DNA of 52,344 nt from Myxococcales bacterium (lineage in GTDB: Bacteria; Myxococcota_A; Polyangia; Polyangiales; Houyiibacteriaceae): positions 1-52,344 of the forward strand of contig JAOTXX010000022.1 in NCBI GenBank assembly GCA_029862185.1, read 5' to 3'. How positions within the stretch are numbered: position 1 is the first letter of the stretch; each line of letters begins with the position of its first letter. The position numbers and the translations under genes are program-made. Positions 19,688-31,684 of this stretch are shown here, piece by piece. The notes under the pieces are model-generated. The model was not told the DNA's origin and did not search any database. It saw only the letters and a program-made list of their open reading frames with translations.

Positions 19688-20764
19688 TTAGGCGGCTTCG
19701 ATGGCGTTCACGACTGCACCCGCCATCTCCGTTGTCCCGAGCGAACGCTGTCCGCCGCTCAAATCTGCCGTCCTGAGGCCACTGTCGAGGACCTTTTGAA
19801 CCGCATCTTCAATCGTTTTCGCATCTTCATCGAGGTCGAGGCTGTGCCGAAGCAGCATCGCCGCGCTCAAAATGGTGCCAAGAGGGTTTGCGATCCCCCG
19901 GCCGGCGATGTCAGGCGCCGAGCCGTGGATGGGCTCGTAGAGGCCCAGCGTCCCCTCGCCGAGTGATGCGCTCGGGAGCAGCCCGAGCGAGCCCGTCAAG
20001 ACAGCGCCCTCGTCCGAGAGGATGTCACCGAACATGTTGCCGCTGACGATGACGTCGAACGAGGAAGGGTCGGTGACGAGCCGCATGGCTGCCGAGTCGA
20101 CGAGCTGATGGTCGAGACGAATGTCGGGGTTCTCTTTGCCGACCTCGGTGGCAATTTCGCGCCAGACCTGCATCGTCGCAAGCACGTTGGCCTTGTCGAT
20201 TGAGGTAACGTGCCCGCCACGCTTTCTGGCCACTTGAAAAGCCAGCTCGACGATGCGGCGAATCTCGCTCTCGTCGTACATCATCGTGTCGAAGCCCGTG
20301 CGAAGTCCGTTCCTGGTTTCTTTCCCCTTTGGCTGCCCGAAGTAGATACCGCCCGTCAGCTCTCGGATGAAGACGATGTCGACGCCGCGGAGTCGCTCAG
20401 CCTTGAGAGGGGAGGCCGCTTCGAGCCCTCGGAAGAGCTTCACGGGCCGGACGTTGGCGAAGAGCTGCAGTGCTTTTCGCATTCCGAGGAGCCCCTGCTC
20501 AGGTCGAACCGTAGCATTCGGATCGTCCCATTTCGGCCCGCCCACCGCACCGAGCAGGACCGCGTCCGCACTCCGGCAACCGACGATGGTGTCGTCCGGC
20601 AAGGGCACACCCGTTTCGTCGATCGCGATGCCGCCGATCAAGTGAGTGGAAAACGTGAACGTGTGGCCCGACCTGCTCGCGATGGCTTCGAGCACCTGGC
20701 GGGTCGCGTCTACGATTTCGGGCCCGATGCCGTCGCCCGGAAGGAGTGTGATCTTGGCTTTCAT
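19688..20764 (-). CDS. leuB: 3-isopropylmalate dehydrogenase
   Basis: A 358-residue LeuB. It has the N-terminal LLPGDGIGPEIVDATR, the substrate-binding arginines in LGMRKALQLFANVRPVK, the catalytic region ELTGGIYFG with Y then K in the next domain, and the metal aspartates in VIVSGNMFGDILSDE. It oxidises and decarboxylates 3-isopropylmalate, and in citramalate-pathway organisms also 3-methylmalate, so it serves leucine and isoleucine synthesis here given the adjacent cimA. A 56-base gap separates it from cimA. Confidence 0.95.
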   Translation of the reverse strand: MKAKITLLPGDGIGPEIVDATRQVLEAIASRSGHTFTFSTHLIGGIAIDETGVPLPDDTIVGCRSADAVLLGAVGGPKWDDPNATVRPEQGLLGMRKALQLFANVRPVKLFRGLEAASPLKAERLRGVDIVFIRELTGGIYFGQPKGKETRNGLRTGFDTMMYDESEIRRIVELAFQVARKRGGHVTSIDKANVLATMQVWREIATEVGKENPDIRLDHQLVDSAAMRLVTDPSSFDVIVSGNMFGDILSDEGAVLTGSLGLLPSASLGEGTLGLYEPIHGSAPDIAGRGIANPLGTILSAAMLLRHSLDLDEDAKTIEDAVQKVLDSGLRTADLSGGQRSLGTTEMAGAVVNAIEAA

Positions 20765-27706: not shown

Positions 27707-27707
<1 letters not shown>

Positions 27708-29479
27708 TAGTCGTCCTTCCCTGTTTCGAAGATCGGGTTGTGCTCCGACCCGCCGGGTTTGCCCGGCCGCTCAATCATGTTGTGAAGGTCCGCTCCGGCG
27801 GGCACCATCGGGTACACGGAGTCTTCCTGCTCGACACGGAAATCGATGACGACGGTACCCTGAGTGGCTTCCGCCGTGCGAACGGCCGCTTCGACCTCTG
27901 ACCGCTTTTCCACGCGGAGGCCAGTCAAACCATGTGCGTCAGCGAGCTTCACGAAGTCGGGACTCAGGAGCGGAGTTGCGACGTAGCGTCCGCCGTAGAA
28001 GAACTGCTGCCACTGACGAACCATGCCGAGGAAGCCATTGTTGATGATGGCAACGTTGACCTTGATGCCTTCTTGCGCGCAGGTCGACAGCTCTGCCGCT
28101 GTCATTTGAAAGCCACCGTCGCCGCAGATGACCCACACGGACTCATCAGGTTCGGCGAATTTCGCGCCGATTGCGGCAGGCAAGGCAAAGCCCATCGTAC
28201 CGAGGCCGCCCGAGGTGAGCAGTTTCCGCGGATAGTCGTGCTTGTAGTACTGAGCTTCCCACATCTGATGCTGTCCGACGTCGGTGACGACGAGCGCCTT
28301 GCCTTCGGTGAACCGATAGAGGTCGTGGATGACGTGGGCTGCGTAGAGCTTGCCGAGGTCGGGGAGGTTCTTGATGTCCCTGACCGCCGATCCGCCTTTG
28401 ATCTCATCGATGTAGGCCAGCCAGTCCGGGCGGTCGCAGTTCTCGACGCGAGGCATGAGTGCCTCGAGAACCTCGCGCGCGTCGCCGACGATCGGCACAT
28501 CGACGCGGACGTTCTTGTTGATCTCTGCAGGGTCGAGCTCGATGTGAATCTTCTTGGCGTTCTGCGCGTAGGTCTTGAGGTTGCCCGTCACGCGGTCGTC
28601 AAAGCGCATCCCGACGGCGATGATCAAATCCGCGTCCTGGATGGCCTTGTTGACCCAGGTCTCTCCATGCATGCCCATCATCCCGAGGTTTCGGGGGTGA
28701 GTAGCCGGGAATCCACCCAGGCCCAGCAATGTGCAGGCGACCGGAATGTTTGTCGTTTCGATGAACTTCTTGAGGGTCTCCGTGGCTTGCGACTTGATGA
28801 TGCCGTACCCGGAGAAGAGGATCGGACGTTTTGCGTTCTTGATGAGATCGACGGCTTCGTCGAGCTGCTCGGCCAGGGGCGCGTAGTCCGGGCGGTAGCC
28901 GGGAAGCACGATTTCTTCGTCACTCCATTCGAACACACAGGATTTCTGTTGCGCATCCTTGGTGATGTCCACGACGACAGGTCCAGGTCGCCCCGAACGC
29001 GCGATGTAAAACGCCTCTCGAATCGTCGGAGCGATTTGCTCTGGCTCGGTCACCAGGTAGTTGTGCTTGGTGACTGGGATGGTGCAGCCGGTGATGTCGG
29101 TCTCCTGGAACGCGTCGCTGCCGATGAGCTGAGACGGAACCTGCCCCGTGATGCAGACCATTGGGATCGAATCGAGCATGGCGGTGGCAATGCCGGTGAC
29201 CAAGTTGGTCGCTCCAGGGCCCGAGGTTGCGATACAGACACCGACTTGCCCCGATGCACGGGCATAGCCGTCGGCCATGTGCGAGGCGCCTTGCTCGTGG
29301 CGCGTCAGCACATGGTGGATTGGGTATTGGATCATCGCGTCGTAGGCCGGCATAATCGCGCCGCCCGGATACCCGAAGCAGACCTCGACCCCCTCGCGTA
29401 CGAGCGCTTCCCAGATGATCTGGGATCCGGAAAGCGATTCGCCGATGCGATTCTTCAGCTTGGGATTGGCGGGTGTCAC
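27707..29479 (-). CDS. ilvB: Acetolactate synthase large (catalytic) subunit
   Basis: A 590-residue thiamine-diphosphate enzyme. The N-terminal VCFGYPGGAIMPAYD with the following RHEQGASHMADGYARASG holds the ThDP glutamate region, and the C-terminal GDGGFQMTAAEL plus INNGFLGMVRQWQ is the ThDP/Mg motif. The GTG start at 29479 is preceded by AAGGAG. It catalyses the first common step of valine, leucine and isoleucine synthesis and is first gene of the operon, downstream of the attenuator leader at 29553-29870. Confidence 0.96.
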
Positions 29480-29552
29480 GAGGGTCTCCTTCGGTGCTGG
29501 CTGGCTCCAACTAGTTGATTTGAGGCGGTATTCAAGCGGCGCGCGCCCAACG

Positions 29553-29586
29553 AAAAAGGCGCCGGGTCGATCACCGACCGGGCGCC
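29553..29586 (-). terminator. Second intrinsic terminator in the ilvB leader
   Basis: Arms 29558-29569 and 29575-29586 pair over 12 positions with a single C:C mismatch around a 5-base loop, followed on the minus strand by five Ts. It lies 74 bases before ilvB, so transcription must read through it or be regulated there. Confidence 0.75.
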
Positions 29587-29675
29587 TATCCCGAGGACGA
29601 ACTGGGGCATGCCCGACGCACGCCCGGTTGCTGTAGTTTTGTGCTGTGAGTGTCTATTCATGGGTCTTAGGCAAC

Positions 29676-29705
29676 AAAAAAGCCCCCGCATGCTCGATGC
29701 GAGGG
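29676..29705 (-). terminator. Attenuator terminator of the ilv operon leader
   Basis: On the minus strand CCCTCGCAT (29705-29697) pairs with ATGCGGGGG (29691-29683), nine pairs with one G:U, around a CGAGC loop, followed by TTTTTT at 29681-29676. The 5' arm shares its CCC with an alternative helix: GGGACCAGAA at 29747-29738 against TTCTGGCCC at 29711-29703, with one bulged A. The helices exclude each other, as an antiterminator and terminator should. Confidence 0.75.
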
Positions 29706-29750
29706 CCAGAAACGGTGTGGGTTGGTCTGTGGGTTGGTTCTGGTCCCCGC

Positions 29751-29849
29751 CTATGCCTGCGTAACTAGCAGGAGGCTAATAATGAGGCCGACTACGACTA
29801 CAACACCACCGACGAGGCCCGCGCGAAGCGCGTCCATCGGATCATTCAT
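29751..29849 (-). CDS. ilv leader peptide (attenuation)
   Basis: A 32-codon open frame, ATG at 29849 to TAG at 29751, whose product contains 7 Val, 6 Leu and 2 Ile, including VVVVV at residues 16-20 and LIISLLLV at 22-29. Several of these codons (GTA, CTA, ATT) look rare for a GC-rich genome. The antiterminator arm begins two bases after the stop codon, so a ribosome that finishes translation would mask it, while one stalled on Val, Leu or Ile codons would leave it free. An in-frame ATG at 29870 is possible but would be almost leaderless. A single transmembrane helix is the alternative reading of this hydrophobic peptide; position upstream of ilvB favours a leader. Confidence 0.72.
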   Translation of the reverse strand: MNDPMDALRAGLVGGVVVVVGLIISLLLVTQA

Positions 29850-29879
29850 AGCGATCGGTTCATGAACCATTACCGCCCC

Positions 29880-29908
29880 ATTGTGCGGCCAACCCCCCCC
29901 ACGGTCAA
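29880..29908 (-). promoter_or_regulatory. Predicted ilv operon promoter
   Basis: On the minus strand TTGACC (29908-29903), a 17-bp spacer containing a run of eight G, and CACAAT (29885-29880) form a sigma70-like promoter. Transcription would start near 29873, giving a short untranslated region before the leader peptide. The -35 box lies two bases from the end of repeat copy B. Confidence 0.6.
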
Positions 29909-29910
29909 GA

Positions 29911-30082
29911 GGGACACTCTCTACCCCTTCAACCCAATGGAATCACCCGACTTCTCAGCGAAGGATCGCAGCGACTTCGACTCTGCGTAGCGGATCACCC
30001 ACCAACACGTGTGAGCCGGCGCTGCGATCTTAGGGGCAGAAGTCGTTGTGTTTCGGGCAGTTGAGGGGGTAGAGAGTGTCCC
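29911..30082. repeat. Palindrome-ended intergenic repeat, copy B (MITE/REP-like)
   Basis: A 172-bp element with a perfect 17-bp terminal inverted repeat: GGGACACTCTCTACCCC at 29911-29927 and its complement at 30066-30082. Interior blocks such as AAGGATCGCAGCGACTTC and GGCGCTGCGATCTT are shared with copy A. It separates the kinase stop codon (30086) from the ilv promoter, so it may act as a terminator or insulator. No open frame or transposase was seen inside. Confidence 0.75.
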
Positions 30083-30085
30083 GGT

Positions 30086-31684
30086 TTAGCGCTCTTCTAG
30101 GTCTACGGCGACGGTTTGCTCGGTGGGGCTTGCGGTGAGCGGCTCGGAGCGCTGCTCGATTTGGCCGCCGAACGCGTCCCACCATGCCTCGGCGTCTGCG
30201 CGGGTCCAGCGCGCGACCGCGAGTCGATCGAGGGCGTCGGCAAGCTCTTGTCCGGAGGCCGGCCGGTTGGCTTGGTCCTTTTCCAAACAGGCCAGGATGA
30301 GCGACTCGAGCCCGGCGGGGATATCCAGCGGCGACGCTTCTGTGAGTGGAATGGGCTTGGTGTGAAGGTGGTGCAGGCAGACTTCCATGATCGTCTTCCC
30401 ATCGAAGACGTGGCGGCCCGCAAGCAGGTAATATCCAACGGCACCGAGCGCGTAGATATCGGTACGCGCGTCGATCGCCTGCGGTTCCTGGATTGCCTCG
30501 GGACTCAAGTAATGCGGCGTGCCCTTGATCGACATCGTGTTGGTCTTCTCGAGGTCATCGACCTTGCCGAGATTCTTCACGAGGCCGAAATCGAGCACTT
30601 TGGTCACGTCCGGCACGCCGCCCTGACGCGCGAGCATGACGTTGCTCGGTTTGATGTCGCGATGAATCAACCCAACTTGGTGCGCTTCATTCAGTGCAAG
30701 CGCCGCGTCACGAAGAATGCGCACGACCCGCTCGACCGGCTGCGGGCCGCCGGCTTTGACCACTTGGCTCAGGGTCGCCCCGTCGAGCAGCTCCATTGCG
30801 TAGTAGAACAGCCCATCGGGGGTCCGGCCGTAGTCGTAGATGGTGACCGTGTTCGGGTGGGTGAGCTTTGCGGTCAGCTGCACCTCACGCCGAAAGCGGT
30901 CGAGAGCGTCCGAGTCCGCCAGCTCCGGCCGCAGCAGCTTTATGGCGGTTGGCCGCTTCAACATCCCGTGCTGCGCCTCGTAGACGACACCCATCGCGCC
31001 CTCTCCGAGCTTACGGCGGAGATTGTATTGACCGAGGCTTTGGATGTCGCTCACCTCTTTGCGCAATCGGTGAATCACCCTGGACGCAAGGGCTGCGAGG
31101 CCGACCGTGAGTGTCCACCACATGAGCGTGATCACCGATTGAGCAGATGCGACGCGCTGCGCGGACTCCGCCGGGTAGCCGAACACCCGCCAGATGTCGA
31201 GGTCTACGCTCAAATAGTGGTAGTACATCGCCGCCACGAGCGGGATCCCGATGAGGATGCCGAGGATCGTGGTTCGCCGGGCGGAGCTGGGCACGAATAC
31301 GCTCCGGGCAAACATCACGAGCGCTAGAATGAACGCGGTGATCGTCTCGGCCCCGACCTCGGGTCGAATCTCCAGACCCATGCCGATGTAGCAAATGCTG
31401 GTGAGGAAGATGCCAATGTTCTCGATGCCATGAATCGTGTTGACCGAGAGGTTGCCGCGCCGGCAGATCAACCAAACCGCCAACAGCGGTACGATTCCAG
31501 CGGCATGGATCAGGAAACCCGGGTCGGTGACTTGTTCCTCGAGAACCCCAAACAGGACGCCCAGGACCAAGCGAAACACCAAGGCCGTGCCCCCGAGGAT
31601 GGCGCCGATGAGCCCGAACACGGCGACGCGCCGCTGAAGAAAGGCGCGCGCTTCGGGATTCGCGAAGTAGGTACTTTTGCTCAT
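30086..31684 (-). CDS. Membrane-anchored Ser/Thr protein kinase
   Basis: A 532-residue Hanks-type kinase with an unusual N-terminal membrane domain. Residues about 18-205 contain roughly five to seven hydrophobic segments. The cytoplasmic kinase domain starts near 220: GEGAMG at 228-232, ATP-binding K249 in AIKLL, catalytic HRD at 341-343 with KPSN, and DFG at 365-367. A GTPHYLSPE activation-segment end follows. PknB-type kinases usually put the membrane anchor after the kinase domain, so this order is reversed and may let the membrane part sense a signal. No phosphatase or FHA protein is nearby, and the target is unknown. Confidence 0.88.
   Translation of the reverse strand: MSKSTYFANPEARAFLQRRVAVFGLIGAILGGTALVFRLVLGVLFGVLEEQVTDPGFLIHAAGIVPLLAVWLICRRGNLSVNTIHGIENIGIFLTSICYIGMGLEIRPEVGAETITAFILALVMFARSVFVPSSARRTTILGILIGIPLVAAMYYHYLSVDLDIWRVFGYPAESAQRVASAQSVITLMWWTLTVGLAALASRVIHRLRKEVSDIQSLGQYNLRRKLGEGAMGVVYEAQHGMLKRPTAIKLLRPELADSDALDRFRREVQLTAKLTHPNTVTIYDYGRTPDGLFYYAMELLDGATLSQVVKAGGPQPVERVVRILRDAALALNEAHQVGLIHRDIKPSNVMLARQGGVPDVTKVLDFGLVKNLGKVDDLEKTNTMSIKGTPHYLSPEAIQEPQAIDARTDIYALGAVGYYLLAGRHVFDGKTIMEVCLHHLHTKPIPLTEASPLDIPAGLESLILACLEKDQANRPASGQELADALDRLAVARWTRADAEAWWDAFGGQIEQRSEPLTASPTEQTVAVDLEER

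Follow-up and report, generated by a model that had tools for sequence, protein, structure and literature searches.

The region upstream of ilvB in the window, which is the whole 52,344-nt stretch of DNA analyzed here, raises the question of what a leader with two intrinsic terminators responds to before a branched-chain amino acid (BCAA) operon. The initial annotation had proposed ribosome-mediated attenuation, with both terminators in one leader. That the first terminator (T1) belongs to such an attenuator and that the second (T2) is a real second terminator is judged very probable from the comparisons given below, a judgment that excludes how T2 is controlled.

On the minus strand, 3′ of the leader, the genes ilvB, ilvN, ilvC, leuA, leuC, leuD, and cimA were each recognized by one or more matching NCBIfam models at scores exceeding the cut-off, which bears out the ilv-leu-cimA operon named initially. 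The first gene of this ilvBNC-leuACD-cimA series is listed here.

27707-29479, minus strand: ilvB, acetolactate synthase large subunit, GTG start, TIGR00118 above cut-off

An ORF at 19688-20764, after cimA, is one that we take by eye to be leuB-like. Upstream of the leader, a Ser/Thr kinase gene ends at 30086. The genome carrying the window comprises 4.3 Mb in 169 contigs. The nearest ilvB relatives are from MAGs labelled Deltaproteobacteria or Myxococcales, with Polyangiaceae and Sorangium next, and on this sequence placement the window was treated as an uncultured genus in the Sandaracinus-containing family of Myxococcota. The genus set comprised 19 genomes, of which 14 were aligned for the leader and T1 and 15 had a readable leader for T2 and its reading frame (ORF2). 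The family set for helix comparison comprised 21 loci and was obtained with a motif-specific search, so that it is biased towards structure.

A palindrome of about 170 bp at 29911-30083 (GGGGACACTCTC...AAGATCGCAGCG...CGCTGCGATC...GAGAGTGTCCCC; -90 kcal/mol) takes up the space from the kinase stop to the ilv promoter. It has 17 matches in the genome, often directly behind a stop codon, and its right end is recognizable before the -35 box in several relatives. The palindrome is suggestive of a REP-like or a non-autonomous mobile element.

Leader peptide and first terminator

The first part of the leader contains the following features.

29880-29908, minus strand: promoter TTGACC-17-CACAAT, from a consensus scan, 9/12 consensus
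29751-29870, minus strand: leader ORF1, ATG 29870 to TAG 29751, 39 codons, MVHEPIAMNDPMDALRAGLVGGVVVVVGLIISLLLVTQA
29749-29776, minus strand: 1:2 hairpin GCCTCCTGC...GCAGGCATAGGC at the end of ORF1, -11.4 kcal/mol
29740-29750, minus strand: antiterminator 5′ arm A, GCGGGGACCAG, directly after the ORF1 stop
29699-29709, minus strand: shared arm B, CTGGCCCTCGC, the antiterminator 3′ arm, overlapping the T1 5′ arm
29675-29707, minus strand: terminator T1, an 11-bp stem (29707-29681) and then TTTTTTG, from a consensus scan and fold

The TTGACC-17-CACAAT promoter of the initial annotation was recovered at 29908-29880. Both hexamers are conserved across the aligned genus genomes, where the consensus is TTGACC-17-CAGAAT. 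Two promoter-like sites of this quality occur in the 801-bp region, compared with an expectation of 0.1 from shuffles. Because ATG 29870 is kept close behind the -10 box (9 nt in the window, 6 to 10 nt in relatives), ORF1 is probably leaderless or nearly so, with translation from at or near the RNA 5′ end.

Among the 39 codons of ORF1 are 17 for Val, Leu, or Ile, including the GVVVVVGLIISLLLV run, and this bias is kept in the genus, as are ATG 29870, the frame, and the C-terminal GVVVVVGLIISLLLVTQA; alignment gaps within ORF1 are of 3 or 12 nt. The frame had first been given as 32 codons with 15 branched-chain residues, a count that is right from the internal ATG 29849, but relatives lack this ATG (in L013, for instance, the residues there are I A I N), and it is ATG 29870 with its longer frame that is kept. 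The codons GTA and CTA, described as rare-looking, are indeed rare, making up 6% of Val and 3% of Leu codons, respectively, in the operon and neighbouring genes.

The ORF1 stop codon (29753-29751) adjoins arm A with 0 bases between them, which corrects the distance of two bases assumed before. Arms A and B form the antiterminator, which contains one A.C mismatch; over the 14 genus leaders, 100% of its cells are paired. One two-sided change, G-C to A-U in L019, was observed in the genus, and owing to the low variation 34 of 500 shuffles reach the antiterminator score. T1 is likewise 100% paired in the 14 genomes, with changes of G-U type only. Across the 21 family loci, pair 3 of the antiterminator is GC or AU, pair 4 is GC, GU, or AU, and pair 10 is AU, GC, or CG, and T1 shows CG, UG, and UA pair types. 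In L029, arms A and C, the alternative partners of B, have both gone from G to A opposite T in B, a double change that agrees with what a switch predicts. The predicted stabilities of T1 (-18.6 kcal/mol) and the antiterminator (-17.7 kcal/mol) are comparable, and the two helices are mutually exclusive. Covariation of the helix pairs in relatives had been named as a check on the model, and the pairs do covary (14 genus genomes; 21 family loci). The proposed competition of an antiterminator with an intrinsic terminator is supported in that arm B is common to both helices and covaries with its partners in the family. The 1:2 hairpin could possibly act as a pause or protector hairpin; it is paired in 96% of cells in 14 genomes with one pair changed on both sides, and its score is reached by 135 of 500 shuffles, so this signal is weak.

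The locus combines a cluster of end-product codons, a terminator before the first structural gene, and a conserved antiterminator that shares an arm with it. By its geometry, arm A would be masked by a ribosome at the stop and free on a stall further upstream; its start abuts the stop in the genus and at other loci precedes the stop by up to about 25 nt. We assign T1 with high confidence, from these sequence features, to the classical ribosome-mediated attenuators.

The peptide might instead have been conserved as a protein independent of ilvB, an outcome that had been named as contrary to attenuation. The leader DNA (29667-29810) was found once per genome in 17 of the 19 genus genomes, and upstream of ilvB wherever the contig extends to ilvB. 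Of the two genomes without it, one has a contig that begins inside ilvB, and the other, of 66% completeness, has just a partial match to ilvB. That ORF1 is a small hydrophobic membrane protein, kept for its product and standing before ilvB by chance, is considered very unlikely. Its GGVVVVVGLIISLLLV stretch could span a membrane and its C-terminal half is well conserved, but conservation there extends to third codon positions and the N-terminal half varies freely. The stop abuts the antiterminator, other myxobacterial loci keep the BCAA bias and the position of the leader peptide and not its sequence, and ORF1 has no Pfam or NCBIfam match. Still more improbable, to the point of being nearly negligible, is membership in a described RNA family, whether as a T-box, a ppGpp riboswitch, or some other type. 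Elements of these kinds are found upstream of ilvB in other bacteria (PMC10272879), but scans of the window and of 8 relatives against the Rfam families, among them T-box, ilvB-OMG, and Leu_leader, gave no hit at a gathering score and no relevant one at E values up to 5. Ribosome-mediated attenuation is the preferred reading of T1.

Second terminator within a second reading frame

Between T1 and ilvB, three further features were recorded.

29476-29661, minus strand: ORF2, 61 codons plus stop, MNRHSQHKTTATGRASGMPQFVLGIGARSVIDPAPFSLGARRLNTASNQLVGASQHRRRPS, with the stop TGA overlapping the ilvB GTG by 4 bases (GTGA)
29603-29616, minus strand: small CATG-loop hairpin in ORF2
29551-29587, minus strand: second terminator T2, a stem (29587-29557) of 12 bp with one C.C mismatch plus a U-run, inside ORF2

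The second, stronger terminator announced in the initial annotation was found at 29587-29557, where it folds at -23.0 kcal/mol compared with -18.6 kcal/mol for T1. Its inclusion in a single leader switch did not hold, as T2 is instead a genus-specific element within a second ORF. All 15 genus genomes whose leader could be read carry it, and an architecture scan found it in none of 23 other leaders; that scan also missed the weaker-stemmed copies of L018 and L020, which the alignment reveals. Two T2 pairs are changed on both sides (C-G to U-A in L025 and U-A to C-G in L014), and in the CATG hairpin 3 of 5 pairs are changed on both sides, with 80% of cells paired over 15 genomes. The covariation score of the CATG hairpin and T2 together was reached by 2 of 500 shuffles, a control that ignores relatedness. 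In comparison with synonymous recodings, 0 to 44 of 300 were as stable as the T2 hairpin (at most 12 in 14 of the 15 genomes), which indicates that RNA structure at T2 is under selection over and above any peptide. The T2 region is U-rich though TTC accounts for 76% of Phe codons. No conserved alternative partner (antiterminator) for the T2 5′ arm stood out among the conserved stems.

Two other candidates in this region were rejected. T2 is single copy in the genome and is not a dispersed genomic repeat, and a conserved TTGAAT between T2 and ilvB had no fitting -10, by eye, to make it a promoter. A 7-bp stem pairing ORF2 columns 61-67 with the ilvB 5′ coding region was also observed.

The ORF2 start lies some 13 nt past the U-run of T1, and T2 occupies codons 26-37 of the 61. 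Its 186-nt alignment of 15 genomes is gap-free, while the nearby spacers vary (A-B 43-46, T1-ilvB 201-204). The frame is open in 14 of the 15 genomes, and 3 of 3000 column shuffles were equally open. The parts of ORF2 preceding T2 resemble protein more than most shuffles do (as high a score in 2/200 and 6/200), and codon-position bias is slight. Amino-acid constraint is weak, with a pN/pS of 0.76 (codons 1-10, 0.54; shifted frames, 0.87 and 1.07) versus 0.08 for ilvB. No Shine-Dalgarno sequence was found at the ORF2 start; the anti-Shine-Dalgarno value of -12.2 in L012 was disregarded owing to its incomplete contig. The pyrBI attenuator has a uridine-rich tract. A U-rich pause tract of this type before T2 was not seen in the ORF2 alignment, which has an A-rich start. 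The simplest reading of these alignments is that ORF2 would be kept for being translated and not for its product.

In L026 (G009:C43), an in-frame TGA in ORF2 after T2 was found together with GTC replacing the ilvB GTG; this is a low-coverage MAG (coverage about 3), and sequencing errors are possible. Before the ilvB Shine-Dalgarno sequence, a block GCTTGAAnGCCGC....AATCnACTAGTTGGAGCCAGCCA (29498-29537, alignment columns about 126-165) is conserved more than the weak ORF2 constraint explains, and no structure or site was recognized in it.

Small reading frames were also observed before ilvB in other genera. In sister genera (L138-L143; G025, G022, G031, G019, G028, and G020), a conserved protein of 46-50 aa, APPLPxxxEVLRRCRxERLGHRFAENxF, lies between T1 and ilvB; it has strong matches only in those sister genera and belongs to no Pfam or NCBIfam family. 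ORF2 was rejected as a homologue of the 46-aa sister-genus protein, the profile of which had no match in the genus. In L033 and L039, from another family of the order, different small ORFs overlap or abut the ilvB start, e.g., one ending in ...NDVQRALA at the stop with an ATGA overlap in L039. To judge from these loci, small coupled ORFs may recur upstream of ilvB.

Control of the second terminator and proposed mechanism

How T2 is controlled admits two main readings. The one tentatively preferred, although far from secure, is a translation-coupled checkpoint of the pyrBI type, in which a ribosome on ORF2 would block the folding of T2 and be handed to ilvB via the GTGA overlap. The position of T2 within the frame fits this arrangement, as do the constant length of ORF2, without indels in 15 genomes despite variable nearby spacers, the open frame in 14 of 15, and the protein-like stretches before T2. 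Intrinsic terminators inside coding sequence or close to it are known to be repressed by translating ribosomes (PMC4824070; pyrL, PMC5021804). The lack of a Shine-Dalgarno sequence and of a pyrBI-type U-rich pause tract, the weak amino-acid constraint, the in-frame stop after T2 in L026, and the failure to find a conserved antiterminator for T2 all count against it. Alternatively, T2 may be a constitutive partial terminator that cuts the leak after T1, with ORF2 a by-product of a fixed-length structured RNA. T2 is strong and conserved, no conserved alternative partner was found for its 5′ arm, and the slight codon-position bias and the closeness of pN/pS 0.76 to the 0.87 of a shifted frame agree with this reading. 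Structure alone, however, leaves unexplained both the open frame and the 186 nt without an indel, which include the most variable 45 nt, and this second reading is regarded as slightly less probable than the first.

On the proposed mechanism, RNA polymerase would start just upstream of 29870 and ORF1 would be translated from the RNA 5′ end, as the spacing of promoter and ATG suggests. On a shortage of Val-, Leu-, or Ile-tRNA the ribosome would stall in the GVVVVVGLIISLLLV run and leave arm A free, so that A could pair with B and T1 would be blocked; the alternative helices themselves are borne out by conservation and covariation. With charged tRNAs ample, the ribosome at the stop would cover the adjoining arm A, and B and the 3′ arm would form T1. 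Polymerases that get past T1 would meet T2 roughly 90 nt later. This second terminator lies within ORF2, and the stop of ORF2 overlaps the start of ilvB. If translation-coupled control of T2 is adopted as the leading, still uncertain, option, T2 would end transcripts without a following ribosome, and a ribosome on ORF2 would melt T2 and may pass to ilvB.

The leader might then constitute two checkpoints, T1 in series with T2 in ORF2, with the operon needing both a BCAA shortage and a ribosome behind the polymerase, and with the second checkpoint having arisen in one genus. This composite is put forward as a tentative model, held with limited confidence. Within it, pyrBI-like control of T2 by ORF2 translation would be plausible.

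Distribution and comparison with known systems

Beyond the genus, the architecture search looked for a BCAA-rich peptide with its stop 10-90 nt before a terminator and a duplex between the stop region and the terminator 5′ arm of -15 kcal/mol or better. This arrangement was detected before ilvB in 23 of 62 non-genus loci, mostly myxobacterial and including two Sorangium cellulosum genomes (L063 and L065), with none on the reverse strand and none in 5 dinucleotide-shuffle rounds; the 62 loci partly represent the same genome via two collections, and the counts are of loci, not independent species. No paper on myxobacterial attenuators was found in the literature searched, which omits most subscription journals, and amino-acid attenuation of ilvB in this myxobacterial group seems to be undescribed. 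With no description found there and no match to an Rfam model, the locus would extend classical amino-acid attenuation of ilvB to Myxococcota.

The enterobacterial ilvB, ilvGMEDA, and leu attenuators have runs of Val, Leu, and Ile codons in the leader peptide and mutually exclusive 2:3 and 3:4 helices. The leader described here shares these codon runs and exclusive helices, its sequence is unrelated, and the enterobacterial leaders are without T2 or ORF2. The Corynebacterium ilvBNC attenuator (IlvL; ilvB-II motif) is alike in its BCAA-rich leader ORF, which begins at or beside the transcription start, and in an antiterminator and terminator with a common arm (PMC11857589, PMC10272879). In comparison to it, the present leader belongs to another phylum and matches no RNA family, its leader ORF has 39 and not 15 codons, arm A follows directly after the stop, and a second terminator and second ORF come after. 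Structured leaders also stand ahead of ilvB in the ilvB-OMG and ilvB RNA motifs, where several lineages have BCAA-rich uORFs (PMC10272879), whereas no Rfam match was obtained here.

For T2, the closest parallels concern terminators placed under ribosomes, and translating ribosomes can repress intrinsic terminators in or beside coding sequence (PMC4824070, PMC5021804). In E. coli pyrBI (pyrL), an intrinsic terminator lies in or overlaps a short frame, so that a close ribosome can prevent termination (PMC5021804, PMC3641672); in contrast, ORF2 has neither a uridine-rich tract nor a Shine-Dalgarno sequence, comes after a separate attenuator, and shares bases with the start of ilvB. The tandem attenuators of Salmonella mgtCBR, called a singular example, are alike in that a single leader contains two short ORFs, each lying over stem-loops of its own (PMC3641672). 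The mgtCBR stem-loops are unlike intrinsic terminators, whereas both terminators here are intrinsic, with U-runs, and precede a biosynthetic operon. Natural leaders of biosynthetic operons rarely carry two intrinsic terminators. With its second one overlapping a reading frame, the locus would allow asking whether a bacterium joins tRNA-charge sensing with a check of transcription-translation coupling. T1 is a known type of attenuator, and T1 plus T2 and ORF2 departs from that type.
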